Source: Bradyrhizobium sp. CCBAU 53351
GTDB lineage: Bacteria; Pseudomonadota; Alphaproteobacteria; Rhizobiales; Xanthobacteraceae
NCBI RefSeq assembly: GCF_015291745.1
Contig: NZ_CP030060.1
Location: 1-64,000 of the forward strand
Length of the DNA stretch: 64,000 nt
Direction: 5' to 3'
Shown: positions 10,311 through 14,600 of the stretch, in pieces
Layout of the letters: every line of letters starts with the position of its first letter
How positions within the stretch are numbered: position 1 is the stretch's first letter
Made by a program: the position numbers and the translations under genes
Notes under the pieces: model-generated
Seen by the model: only the letters and a program-made list of their open reading frames with translations
The model's database searches: none
What the model was told of the DNA's origin: nothing

Positions 10311-11225
10311 CTATCCTGGGTCAAGATATCGCTCTTCCGCGCGAGCGAGTTCGTCGTACCTTAATAACTCGAAGATCTCTTCAAGGGTCGCGATAGCTGG
10401 CTCAATGCTGGCAACGCCTTCCTCAGCGATAATGCGGCCGCAGACGTGCCGCATTGCCGCAGTCGCAGCTCGCATGGAGTGATTGGCCCAGATCACGGTA
10501 GAGATGCCGGCATCACGGTATGACGAGACCGGCGTTCGATAGTATTTTGTTGGAACGATTACGACAGGTCGGTGGTTCTGCCAGGAACTCGCGAACGAGA
10601 GTATCTCGTCCGCCGTGCTCTTACGCGAGTGAATGAGGATCGCGTCGGCTCCCGCAGCGGCGTAAGCACTAGCGCGTACCAGTGCTTCGTCCATTCCATG
10701 GCCGGCGATCAGGGCTTCGATCCGAGCCACGAGGACCAAGTCTTCCGCCACTGTATCCTTCACTGCCCGCAGACGGCCGGAGAATTCATCGATATCTGCG
10801 AGCGGATGCCGATCGCCAATGAACGAGTTCATTTTCGGAAAGCAGCTGTCCTCAAGCGCGACGCCGGCAGCGCCGCGCTGACGGAGTTTCCGTGCCAGCA
10901 GGCGTGCATTGTTGAAGTTCCCGAAGCCGCCATCACCGTCAACGAGCACAGGCAGTTCGGTCGAGTCGACGATCCGCTCGACCACGTCGACGAGTTGGCT
11001 CCATGATGCTTCGTTGGCATCTCGGTAGCCAAGAGAGGAGGCGATTGCGAGGCCCGACGCCCACAGACCTTTGAATCCCGCGCGCTTGGCGATTGCGCCG
11101 GAGAGCGCATCGTGAGCTTCCATGAGGAAGGAGAGGTCGCGGTTGGAGCAGATCTGAGCGCGCAGCATTTCTGCAAGTGAGGCGCATGGTTTAGGGCGGT
11201 TGCCGAGAACTGACTGTGATTGCAT
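10311..11225 (-). CDS. Phosphoenolpyruvate mutase family protein (isocitrate lyase superfamily)
   Basis: PEP mutase interconverts PEP and phosphonopyruvate, the first step of phosphonate synthesis. The 304-aa protein, from the ATG at 11225 with AAAGGAG 7 bp upstream, resembles authentic PEP mutases along its whole length: GFKGLWASGL (residues 50-59), RDANEASWSQ (68-77), the metal/substrate aspartates in DGDGGFGN (96-103), NFNNAR, VARIEALIAG, and VIVPTKYYRTP. The catalytic loop, however, reads EDSCFPKMNS (125-134) where PEP mutases have EDK: the key lysine is serine (S127). No decarboxylase or other phosphonate gene is adjacent. It lies 225 bp downstream of the 348-aa gene on the same strand and may be read from the same sigma54 promoter. 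Activity may be changed or lost; fold assignment is firm. Confidence 0.85.
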   Translation of the reverse strand: MQSQSVLGNRPKPCASLAEMLRAQICSNRDLSFLMEAHDALSGAIAKRAGFKGLWASGLAIASSLGYRDANEASWSQLVDVVERIVDSTELPVLVDGDGGFGNFNNARLLARKLRQRGAAGVALEDSCFPKMNSFIGDRHPLADIDEFSGRLRAVKDTVAEDLVLVARIEALIAGHGMDEALVRASAYAAAGADAILIHSRKSTADEILSFASSWQNHRPVVIVPTKYYRTPVSSYRDAGISTVIWANHSMRAATAAMRHVCGRIIAEEGVASIEPAIATLEEIFELLRYDELARAEERYLDPG

Positions 11226-11353: not shown

Positions 11354-11450
11354 CTTAGACGTGGCAGTTGACCGAACGACCAAATTATTGGCGAGCGCTG
11401 TGGGATACTTCGGGGAGTTCGGTTAAGCCCTAACATCGCACCTGCCCTGA

Positions 11451-12497
11451 TTAACTCGCCGATCTGCCGCTCGAGCGCTGCCCGCTTGCATACTCCCTTA
11501 ACAGCCACTTGGTGGTTCTATAGCGGCCGACGTAAAGCTTGTAGTTGCGGAGCCGCGCCCGCCTCTTGGCGGATTGCCGGCCGGTGCTGCCGTCCTCGTA
11601 CAGTGGCTCCATGCTTATGTCGAAGTCGAGGTATGGCATCACCGTAAGCTCGAGGAAGCGAGCGCCTTCGAAGTCTTTGCCGCTATGGGCTGGTTTGTAG
11701 CTGGCACGAATCAGCATCGAGCGCAGCAGCATGTGATCCTCGCCATAGATCTGGGTGAAGATCTTGCGCTTCGGCCAGACGATCGACCGGGCGATGATTT
11801 CATTCTTGCGTTCCACATAGGCGCAGGCCAAATCGCCGGCGCCATAGGCGCGCGCCGGGTGCTCCGTGGCATTGCCGTAGCCGCCATACTTGCCGAGCTT
11901 TTCGACCGGTCCTGACATGCAGCTGGACGGGCCGACAATATAGACATGCTCGATCTCGTCCGGTGTTCGCGCTAGCTTCAGTTCGAGGCCCTGCTGATCG
12001 GCCGCGAACAGGTTGGCGAGTTGGGTGATCTCGTCCGCGCCGACGAAGTCGGCAAGGTACTTCTGCAGGTAGGTTCCGACCTTCATCTGAGTGTGGAGGT
12101 CTCGCTCACCATTTTCCACGCTCTCGGTGAAGGCAATCTTGCTTTTGTCCTTCCTGGAAACATGCAGAAAATGGTCTTTGGGAATCTGGTCGGCCCACCA
12201 GACGCCGGACGCAAAGAATGGTTTTTGATATTCGCCCCGGTCGAAGCGGGCCTGCTCGCGGCAGCGCCAGTTCGGGTCCGGTCCCTTGCGCGGGATCAGT
12301 TTACGGTTGAGGGTATTGGAAAGCCCGATCTTTTTCGACCCCCGCGTCTCTGCGATGGTTAGCGCCGCCTTGCTGGCACCGTCGACGAACGGCACGAATG
12401 TCCCGGGGGCGGGCATTTCGACGATCTGGTACATCAGGCGATGCCCGGTGCCGGCGAGCTGCGCCAGATCGGCCTCTGTGATTTTATTGTCGCTCAT
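11451..12497 (-). CDS. Unknown 348-aa protein coupled to the thioredoxin/TPR gene
   Basis: Not recognised. The protein is soluble, with no signal peptide or membrane segment, and has a basic, arginine-rich C-terminus. Its most structured stretch is in the second half: VYIVGPSSCMSGPVEKLGKY, followed by HPARAYGAGDLACAYVE and FTQIYGEDHMLLRSMLIRASY. This resembles conserved phage or prophage proteins of unknown function (from memory, low certainty). The ATG at 12497 overlaps the stop of the upstream thioredoxin/TPR gene (ATGA), so the two are translationally coupled and the operon is headed by a sigma54/NifA promoter. Intact frame. Confidence 0.7.
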   Translation of the reverse strand: MSDNKITEADLAQLAGTGHRLMYQIVEMPAPGTFVPFVDGASKAALTIAETRGSKKIGLSNTLNRKLIPRKGPDPNWRCREQARFDRGEYQKPFFASGVWWADQIPKDHFLHVSRKDKSKIAFTESVENGERDLHTQMKVGTYLQKYLADFVGADEITQLANLFAADQQGLELKLARTPDEIEHVYIVGPSSCMSGPVEKLGKYGGYGNATEHPARAYGAGDLACAYVERKNEIIARSIVWPKRKIFTQIYGEDHMLLRSMLIRASYKPAHSGKDFEGARFLELTVMPYLDFDISMEPLYEDGSTGRQSAKRRARLRNYKLYVGRYRTTKWLLREYASGQRSSGRSAS

Positions 12498-13668
12498 GCG
12501 TCATTTTCACGCGTCTGAATACTCGCCCTTAGCTTTGGCGGTGAGGCGGAGCCAAACAAAAGCGCCTCTAAAGCCTTCTCAGTGCTGTACTTGGCCAGGG
12601 CCTGAATTAACGGCCGCACATAATACTGTCTCTCTTCTTCCTGTATGAGCTTCGAATCGCTCAGCGAGGTCAGTGCCAGTTCGATCAACTCGATCGCCCG
12701 TTCCTTGTTGCCGCTCTCGTAATAGTACTCAGCGATCGCCCCATAAGACCGGAACTTATAGCCATCGGCTTGCGGTGGATTCAGCCATAAAATGTGTTCA
12801 GCCAAATCCCTGCCCATTGCAAAGCGCTCGGCAAGGGGGAGGTGCGAGGCATCATTTGCCGGATCGAAGAGTTGGGTTAGAGCCACCGTCATCAATTCCT
12901 CGGACCCTTTATCGATCGCGTCACGAACCAATTGGCGCATGACGGGCAAGCCGGCCCGTAAGTCGCGAATTTTGTGAAGCAACAGATTGACATGAATCTC
13001 ACGAAGGTCGATTTCGTCCGGCATCAAGACGAGCCCCTCTTGGACCGCCGAGAGCGCCGTCGTCCAATCCTTTGCCCACAGCGCCGCCCGAAGTTTAGCG
13101 TAGATTGGCGAGGTGGGCGTTAGCTCGCGGGCTACCCGTTGGTTCTGCTCAATCCGCTTCGCGTCGGCGGCTTTAGCTTCTTCGCTGGTTCGCCAGACCC
13201 CTTGAAGAACCTTCGGCAAAACATCATTGAGTTGCATTGGATGTCCTATGAACGCGATGTGGCCGTCGCGATCGACGACGAAAGAGATGGGAATCCCGGA
13301 GCAAAACTGGGGTCTCCCCAAAGCTGCTTCATCTCGCCTGTGAAGTCGAACGCAATCCGATAGTTCAGTTTCGGAGACGTTTCGGTCAACCACGCCTCCA
13401 ACTTGGTTCTGGCCTCGTCCGCCGTTGGTGCTTCTTCGCCACATGCGACTCCGATGACCTCAACTCCGCAATCTTTATATTTCTCCTGCAGTTGAACGAG
13501 ATAGGGCATCGCCGCCGTCATACATCGTCCGCACCTACTTGCCCAAAATTCGACAATGTAGACTTTCCCGCACTCGAAGTTCGCAAGGGGCTGGCCACGC
13601 AGCCAACTCCCCACCTTGATGGGAGGAGCCAAAGATTCCATGCGCAGCGCCACGTTGCTGTCCGACAT
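12494..13668 (-). pseudogene. Thioredoxin-fold protein with TPR-like tail, one frameshift
   Basis: The first 120 residues form a thioredoxin/TlpA-like domain with YIVEFWASRCGRCMTAAMP; the CxxC pair is C46 and C49. It has no signal peptide, so a cytoplasmic location is expected. After IPISFVVDRDGHIAFIGHP the protein continues into a helical region of about 230 residues with TPR-like spacing (for example NKERAIELIELALTSLSD). The two halves are in different frames: the shift lies near 13296-13310, where one G appears lost in the codons for PGIPISF. If this is a sequencing error the gene encodes about 390 aa. It starts 90 bp after a perfect -24/-12 promoter and overlaps the 348-aa gene by ATGA. 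Confidence 0.8.
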
Positions 13669-13770
13669 ATTATCAAACCCTACGCGACTTATTTTGACCG
13701 CTTGTCTCTAAGAAACGGGTGGAGAGCATCGATCGCGTGCGTGCACTCAGCACTCTTAGTACTGCGTGTT

Positions 13771-13786
13771 TGCAATGAGTGTGCCA
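13771..13786 (-). promoter_or_regulatory. Sigma54 (RpoN) -24/-12 promoter
   Basis: On the minus strand TGGCAC-ACTCA-TTGCA, identical to the TGGCAC-N5-TTGCA consensus, with the obligatory GG-N10-GC spacing. Predicted transcription start is near 13760, about 90 bp before the thioredoxin/TPR start codon. Confidence 0.9.
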
Positions 13787-13880
13787 GCGGTCGGAGCGCG
13801 TTAGGCCTATGATCGCACTTTTGAAAACCCCCCGGCGCCCAATTCGGGCAGTGTTCTGAACCAGACGCGTTTGGCGCCAA

Positions 13881-13896
13881 TGTCACAAACTAGACA
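13881..13896. promoter_or_regulatory. NifA upstream activator sequence
   Basis: TGTCACAAACTAGACA matches TGT-N10-ACA exactly. Its centre lies about 128 bp upstream of the predicted start of the sigma54 promoter, within the usual range for NifA sites. Together they predict expression in low oxygen and in nodules. Confidence 0.85.
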
Positions 13897-13899
13897 CAG

Positions 13900-14600
13900 A
13901 TCGCGCCTTGCGCCGCCTACAAACACTGGTGTGGCGGTTGTGAGCCGACTTACAAGTATAGCTGGTGAGCTAGACGGATGGTCCGACAAAGACGAACAGT
14001 GTGTCCGCCAGCATGGCTTGCTTCGATAGCTCCGACCAGCGCGCGACTTCGTTGTGTTGCACGTCTTAGGTTTAAAGGCATGCAGAAGGGAGCTACGCAC
14101 GGCATGAGAAAAGCGGGGTAACGAGGCCAGTGCCGAAGCATGCCAGAAGCTCTCAAGGAGAGCGATATGCCGCGAAGGAGATTGCAAACATATCCCATTT
14201 CGTCAGCCCGACGAGATCGACGACCCAGTGACCAATGTCCTGCGCGCCGCGGCAACTTCTGGGCAAGCTATCACGAAATTATCTTGCCACGGTAAAAGGA
14301 GTTGAAGCCGACGAAAGCGCCGTGTCCTGTGGCATGGTTATGGTCCGTCGCGAACGATCAGGCCGGCAGCGGCCCGATCGAAGTAGCGCGGCCGAATGTC
14401 GCAACCGCGGGGCGGCTCGAGATGGCGAGCTGATTCCTGCGTGAGGTTTGTCTGGCGCCGAACCGGCGTCCGGCGAAGCGGCGATCGACGTCTTAGTGGA
14501 AAATTACCGCGCCAAGTAGGGCCAGGTGATCAGATTGTCTATCAATAATCGTGCCGCGCTGCTAACCTTCTACGGCTCTCTAGCCGAACATGGGATTCAC
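13900..14600. other. Gene-poor stretch with decayed sequence
   Basis: Only short frames without recognisable domains on both strands; no RNA gene or repeat recognised. Confidence 0.4.

Follow-up and report, generated by a model that had tools for sequence, protein, structure and literature searches.

Rhizobial proteins of ~385 aa that appear to join an N-terminal TlpA/ResA-like thioredoxin domain (CXXC, cis-proline) to TPR-type helical repeats, here the thioredoxin-TPR family, share with TlpA and ResA the Redoxin/thioredoxin domain, the CXXC motif and the G-I-P proline. PDB sequence matches of one intact relative (P0001) include DsbE, ResA (4nmu) and TlpA (1jfu). The family differs from TlpA and ResA in its extra helical-repeat half and in having no membrane anchor by eye. 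Identity with the TlpA equivalog (NF047696) was rejected for the copy examined here, the 140-aa N-terminal piece reaching 21.5 bits, far below the cut-off of 230.

NifA activator sites typically lie 80–150 bp upstream of the promoter. The locus described here shares with the NifA/sigma54 regulon of rhizobia an exact -24/-12 element, a TGT-N10-ACA site ~110 bp upstream and the presence of nifA and nifH on the same replicon. It differs from the regulon of Mesorhizobium loti R7A, for which the promoter account in PMC3538637 has no thioredoxin-TPR gene among 16 promoters, and the copy examined here is moreover broken. Candidate NifA sites have been predicted for ahpC1, ahpC and ahpD [PMC4999443], and some thioredoxin-TPR relatives (e.g. 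P0032, P0055) are likewise named alkyl hydroperoxide reductase. Because of that shared name, ahpC1 might belong to the family; the likeness is one of gene name, and the passage on ahpC1 in PMC4999443 gives neither sequence nor domain make-up. In Rhizobium leguminosarum UPM791, RLV_1843A is a 153-aa redoxin numbered between nifH and a diaminobutyrate aminotransferase gene; the protein data excerpted from PMC7950203 have it abundant in pea bacteroids, undetected in vegetative cells and 0 in lentil. We infer from its neighbours, not from a comparison of sequences, that it belongs to the family. No functional study of the family was found in the literature searched, and the peanut-strain papers PMC7324677 and PMC13429744 make no mention of the terms looked for.

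Plasmid setting and the NifA-type promoter

The 64,000-bp stretch analysed (the window) belongs to contig C2, a plasmid of 979,291 bp, in the two-contig, 8.14-Mb genome of Bradyrhizobium sp. CCBAU 53351. The same plasmid carries nifH, nodA and nifA, the last at C2:490071-491681 with 652.8 bits against a cut-off of 528.85. Five named plasmids of peanut Bradyrhizobium share a 6-kb region with the window at 100.0% identity. Positions 11400-13960 are letter-identical in the two of those plasmids that were fetched (L003, L004), in genome G036 and in B. zhengyangense (L002), where the 11,802-bp contig agrees with the window at every position. Features of the locus are listed in Table 1. Elsewhere in the window, a groEL/groES pair of the symbiotic plasmid (4114-6115) has neither a -24/-12 element nor an activator site in the 700 bp upstream in the same scan. 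A phosphoenolpyruvate mutase gene, aepX, coding for a phosphonate-synthesis enzyme, lies at 10311-11168 (TIGR02320, 337.4 bits, cut-off 319.55) with no obvious phosphonate pathway adjoining it.

Table 1. Features of the locus, in window coordinates.
Feature	Position	Strand	Evidence or remark
sigma54 -24/-12 promoter TGGCACACTCATTGCA, TGGCAC-N5-TTGCA	13771..13786	minus	11/11 scored positions
NifA upstream activator site, exact TGT-N10-ACA, TGTCTAGTTTGTGACA	13881..13896	minus	starts 110 bp upstream of -24 element
Second exact TGT-N10-ACA	13939..13954	minus	168 bp upstream of -24 element
First piece of broken TlpA-like thioredoxin-TPR gene, 140-aa ORF	13246..13668	minus	Redoxin E=3.8e-10
Active site RCGRC with one extra residue after	13519..13533	minus	WCxxC in aligned relatives; both cysteines remain
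Second piece: thioredoxin domain end and helical repeats	12494..13303	minus	comparison with relatives
348-aa ORF, phage protein family	11451..12497	minus	overlaps preceding ORF by ATGA
Stretch 76% identical in DNA to gene of Bradyrhizobium viral contig L051	11521..12435	minus	DNA comparison

A sequence-only reading of this DNA had proposed a consensus-perfect -24/-12 promoter with a perfect, correctly spaced activator site, and both were confirmed (Table 1). On its own, TGT-N10-ACA is no commoner in the window than expected by chance (6 found, 6.85 expected), and the second such site may be a chance match. Among 2000 shuffles of the 900-bp upstream stretch, one contained an 11/11 promoter and none an 11/11 promoter with a spaced activator site. 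A search of the 8.14-Mb genome for the exact combination of activator site and promoter gave three matches, all of them on the symbiotic plasmid C2, and a reversed-genome control gave none; the exact pattern is a strict test rather than a list of the regulon, and nifH is not among its matches. The other two matches in the genome are not at known nif genes. One, near 442591 of C2 (L134:1501-2600), stands 44 bp before an ORF of 308 aa that by eye resembles an AAA+ ATPase bearing a DECV repeat at its N-terminus and could possibly be a further NifA target. The third has no clear gene behind it.

With the C-terminal ORF as query, the thioredoxin-TPR gene was detected in 40 of 197 related genomes, all of them Bradyrhizobium. 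Leaving aside the window's own genome and G036, 38 genomes carry it, and the best locus of 28 of these was fetched and read for the promoter, a check at orthologous loci that the sequence-only reading had suggested. In all 28 a -24/-12 element (10 or 11 of 11 positions, 22 with 11) precedes the start by 97-494 bp, and in 20 the -24 element is itself preceded, at 96-116 bp, by TGT-N10-ACA, counts that are not independent because the relatives share ancestry and several loci are near-identical. Of 1120 shuffled copies of these upstream regions, 12 reached a score of 10, 1 reached 11 and 0 had the pair. With nifA and nifH on the same plasmid, this agrees with the NifA/sigma54 control proposed for the thioredoxin/helical-repeat protein.

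A second set comprised 36 loci, 34 from Mesorhizobium and 2 from Bradyrhizobium that were read again; several of them are near-identical and thus not independent of one another. A score of at least 10 was obtained for 24 of the 36, and 24 of the 36 have an activator site; 10 of the other 12 carry TGGCATGG(T/C)TTTTGAG, the nifH-type TTGA form, together with activator sites, and the final 2 score 9 of 11 without an activator site. An A at that place in the promoter is reported for the nifH promoters of M. loti and R. etli in the relevant text of PMC3538637. Of 13 copies on named plasmids, 4 (1 Bradyrhizobium, 3 Mesorhizobium) have promoter and site, 2 from Rhizobium have a weaker pair ~530 bp upstream, and 7, of which 6 are from Sinorhizobium or Rhizobium, have no promoter-plus-site pair within 700 bp; these last include Sinorhizobium meliloti pHRC017 and Bradyrhizobium 62B. 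Since 7 of the 13 lack the pair, NifA control is not universal in the family, and is predicted to be a feature of most of the Bradyrhizobium and Mesorhizobium copies read rather than of the family as a whole.

The NifA/sigma54 promoter at 13771-13896 is accordingly taken, from its sequence, to be real. Only the chance frequency of TGT-N10-ACA on its own speaks for a fortuitous match at 13771-13786, and we give this hardly any credence in view of the element upstream in 28 of 28 relatives read and the three exact pairs in the genome against none in the control, on which grounds a chance promoter was rejected.

The two reading frames behind the promoter

The first gene is present in two pieces. 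The first, annotated as a TlpA disulfide reductase family protein in the same plasmid, loses the frame before the cis-proline strand. Relative to 6 of 6 aligned relatives the frame is lost near 13300 and again near 12570, and the CXXC active site has a 3-bp insertion and a W->R change. Because of the loss near 12570 the copy has different residues in its last ~20 positions, where most relatives carry a cysteine pair. The two CXXC cysteines are kept in an altered motif and the G-I-P segment falls beyond the first frame loss; Redoxin domain and helical repeats are both present but in different frames, whereas relatives such as P0001 have them in one. A single frameshift near 13300, in need of verification, had been noted. 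The frame change at this place stands, as the same sequence was found in the five named plasmids and in B. zhengyangense and is therefore no sequencing slip (an error at 13300 was rejected, with six other records reading the same), but it is not the only lesion, given the second loss near 12570 and the 3-bp insertion at the active site. No second thioredoxin-TPR copy was found in the window's genome.

Eight of 93 positions that are invariant in 28 relatives are changed in the window copy. This is within the range of a leave-one-out comparison, in which the most divergent relatives change up to 9 of 102 invariant positions. Values of dN/dS between the window copy and eight relatives are 0.24-0.42, and 0.24-0.41 among the relatives themselves. 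As dN/dS is not raised, the gene was under constraint until recently; dN/dS was rejected as proof of long decay, no relaxation being seen. From its sequence the copy appears to be a recent pseudogene, long constrained and then recently lost, though unrelaxed dN/dS would also fit a gene that is still used, by frameshifting or as a fragment. In four other genomes (G070, G098, G075, G110) 5-10 stretches match the gene, some with internal stops, and the family seems to multiply and decay often.

The second gene had been described as phage-like, and the nearest relative found for the 348-aa protein is indeed in a viral contig, L051. Its protein identity to the gene in L051 is 74%, and the DNA similarity stops at both ends, at 12435 and 11521, which are likely to mark the borders of the relic. 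A search gave 25 matches at E <= 0.001, one of them to a fragment of the window protein itself; in viral contigs 87 stretches matched, from at least 79 loci. Neither Pfam nor NCBIfam has a family for the protein, and the best PHROGs matches have E values of only 0.34 and 0.45; a longer relative (P0123) matches phrog_6980, a family of unknown function, at 2.9e-16. In an alignment of 25 sequences including the window protein, the invariant core residues are kept, and this conserved core is common to phages Pasto (Rhizobium) and BDU-MI-1 (Bradyrhizobium) and to L051. The C-terminal cysteine clusters of the long forms are absent from the 348-aa protein and from the short form in L051.

In BDU-MI-1 and Pasto the gene has rIIA and ArdA genes nearby and lies ~2 kb from the start of the record, a setting suggestive of an early region. 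The long form has a zinc or M28-type peptidase gene behind it in Pasto, a Sphingopyxis plasmid and L051. The locus in the window differs from this phage arrangement, as no peptidase gene follows and both N- and C-terminus have been replaced. The closest copy, in L051, is 310 aa and stands after a DUF6876 gene, and the first 21 residues of the 348-aa protein resemble the start of that DUF6876 protein (9 of 15 positions by eye). Because of this N-terminus the ORF looks like a deletion fusion, an inference from the sequence.

The 348-aa gene was detected in 5 of 197 genomes. Besides that of the window and another that carries the same plasmid these are three in which it is not beside the thioredoxin gene: the two are 76 kb apart in G078 and on other contigs in G070, and G053 has no thioredoxin-gene match. 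A conserved gene pair was therefore rejected, and the search for the pair in rhizobial genomes that had been suggested places it in this plasmid lineage only (197 genomes). The ATGA overlap of the two ORFs is present at 12497-12494, as had been stated. The translational coupling read from it looks fortuitous, because the TGA of the overlap is read outside the frame used by the relatives.

Explanations for the locus

The arrangement is very probably that of a real NifA/sigma54 promoter before a recently broken gene of a conserved family, with a phage relic behind it. The promoter would thus drive the remains of a gene. In strains with intact relatives, NifA would be expected to switch the gene on in microaerobic bacteroids, and the product may be a thiol-disulfide reductase of the cytoplasm whose helical part selects the clients. 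In this plasmid lineage, transcription in bacteroids is to be expected, no complete thioredoxin-TPR protein is predicted, and the 348-aa protein would be at most a passenger. The promoter predicted by eye was real; the operon proposed with it found no support.

A new symbiosis factor formed by the operon, as the sequence-only reading had suggested, does not hold here, with the first gene broken twice, the second a phage remnant and the pair restricted to this plasmid lineage. A working two-gene operon, both proteins being made in bacteroids and acting together, would account for the exact promoter and activator site, the ATGA overlap and the open 348-aa frame. It is nevertheless very improbable in the face of two frame losses in the first gene, of a second gene whose nearest relative found is in a viral contig, and of a pair seen only in this lineage, the 3 other genomes of 197 with the second gene never having it beside the first. 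Slightly less improbable is that the phage gene was captured and is usefully expressed under NifA, its domestication being in progress. The frame has no internal stop in 348 codons and opens with a new N-terminus similar to the beginning of a DUF6876 protein, and the gene is directly behind the promoter unit; against this, both ends are chimeric relative to L051, and selection cannot be measured on a gene whose sequences are identical and come from one lineage.

Somewhat more room, though still little, has to be given to a first gene that works despite its lesions, either via a ribosomal frame shift or through the 140-aa thioredoxin piece alone. There is a run of four T at the first frame-loss site, dN/dS is not relaxed, and the second loss touches only the last ~20 residues; R. 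leguminosarum Vaf-108 has a short, 165-aa N-terminal version, and the 153-aa redoxin numbered next to nifH is, in the PMC7950203 data cited above, abundant in pea bacteroids. However, any complete thioredoxin domain needs a shift at the first site, the 140-aa piece stops before the G-I-P segment, the proline of which is invariant in 36 relatives, and the active site is altered by W->R and the insertion. A real promoter before a broken gene and a phage relic remains the preferred reading.

The intact family in nodule bacteria

The best 120 of 323 matches to the family are mostly 373-408 aa, are named TlpA, redoxin or alkyl hydroperoxide reductase, and come from Bradyrhizobium, Mesorhizobium, Rhizobium, Microvirga and a few others. 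The Redoxin domain occupies residues 24-136 of P0001, and C41, C44 and P121 are invariant in 36 aligned relatives. In an AlphaFold model (mean pLDDT 81.7, pTM 0.66, residues 105-119 poor) nine helices come after a thioredoxin-like half. Pfam TPR scores are below cut-off for the window piece (best 17.1 against 26.2 bits) and for P0003 (20.1 against 27), P0001 and P0051 have no TPR match, and precomputed TPR models exist for some relatives, e.g. P0081. The thioredoxin domain is hence established, as is the promoter, and the model and weak family matches support the repeats. Inspection of the N-terminus by eye points to a cytoplasmic location.

Among 117 Bradyrhizobium genomes, a thioredoxin-TPR match is present in 40 of 64 with nodA and in 0 of 53 without, where only strong nodA matches were counted (eight weak ones were scored as absent), some of the 40 are fragments, and Fisher values for the link treat species as independent, which they are not. 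The family tracks nodulation. When only nifH-positive genomes are considered, the figures are 40/62 with nodA and 0/11 without. Matches were found in 81 of 146 Mesorhizobium genomes and in 6 of 397 genomes in an even draw of the order. Of 112 plasmid records at E 1e-15, 110 are from Rhizobium, Sinorhizobium, Bradyrhizobium or Mesorhizobium.

Mesorhizobium copies are in or beside nif clusters: the gene is between nifENX and fdxB in M. amorphae and M. huakuii, and fdxB follows it in Mesorhizobium AR02. In Rhizobium sp. 007 it adjoins groESL and two pitrilysin genes. The copy on the S. meliloti accessory plasmid pHRC017 (L206, 15001-16107) is 2.8 kb from ectB; this gene has no NifA-type promoter pair, and nearby genes are annotated as acetyl-CoA carboxylase biotin carboxylase subunit family.

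The family is widespread, has NifA/sigma54 promoters in two genera and accompanies nodulation, not nitrogen fixation alone; its intact members look like candidates for an unstudied symbiosis protein common in nodule bacteria. Tentatively, and with more doubt than confidence, the intact family might constitute an undescribed bacteroid-specific thiol-reductase system, controlled by NifA in Bradyrhizobium and Mesorhizobium and mostly by other means on the symbiotic and accessory plasmids of Rhizobium and Sinorhizobium. As the family tracks nodA and not nifH, the system would have its role in life within the plant cell and not in nitrogenase function itself; its substrates could, for instance, be cysteine-rich peptides from the host or oxidised proteins of the bacteroid. 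This is made less probable by the chance that ahpC1 of PMC4999443 is of the same family. If the family does work in bacteroids, it may represent a new layer of redox control in nodules, and its function would have been lost in these peanut bradyrhizobia.

Which legumes make NCR peptides is known, and host names were compared on this background. A link between the family and NCR-peptide hosts is not claimed, because Argyrolobium, Indigofera, Lotus, Robinia and Acmispon are among the hosts as well.

The promoter account of PMC3538637 includes one NifA promoter of M. loti R7A, the reverse of msi281, that is not followed by any annotated gene. This promoter is letter-identical in 43 of 146 Mesorhizobium genomes. 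In one Mesorhizobium locus (L183) the msi281-type promoter region is homologous over 135-290 bp to the promoters of ten thioredoxin-TPR genes; the gene itself is absent within 1.5 kb behind it, and an ORF with a radical-SAM-like CIVGCSYC motif (by eye) is ~300 bp downstream. A thioredoxin-TPR gene is behind the msi281-type promoter in 9 of 30 Mesorhizobium loci read (among L175-L204).
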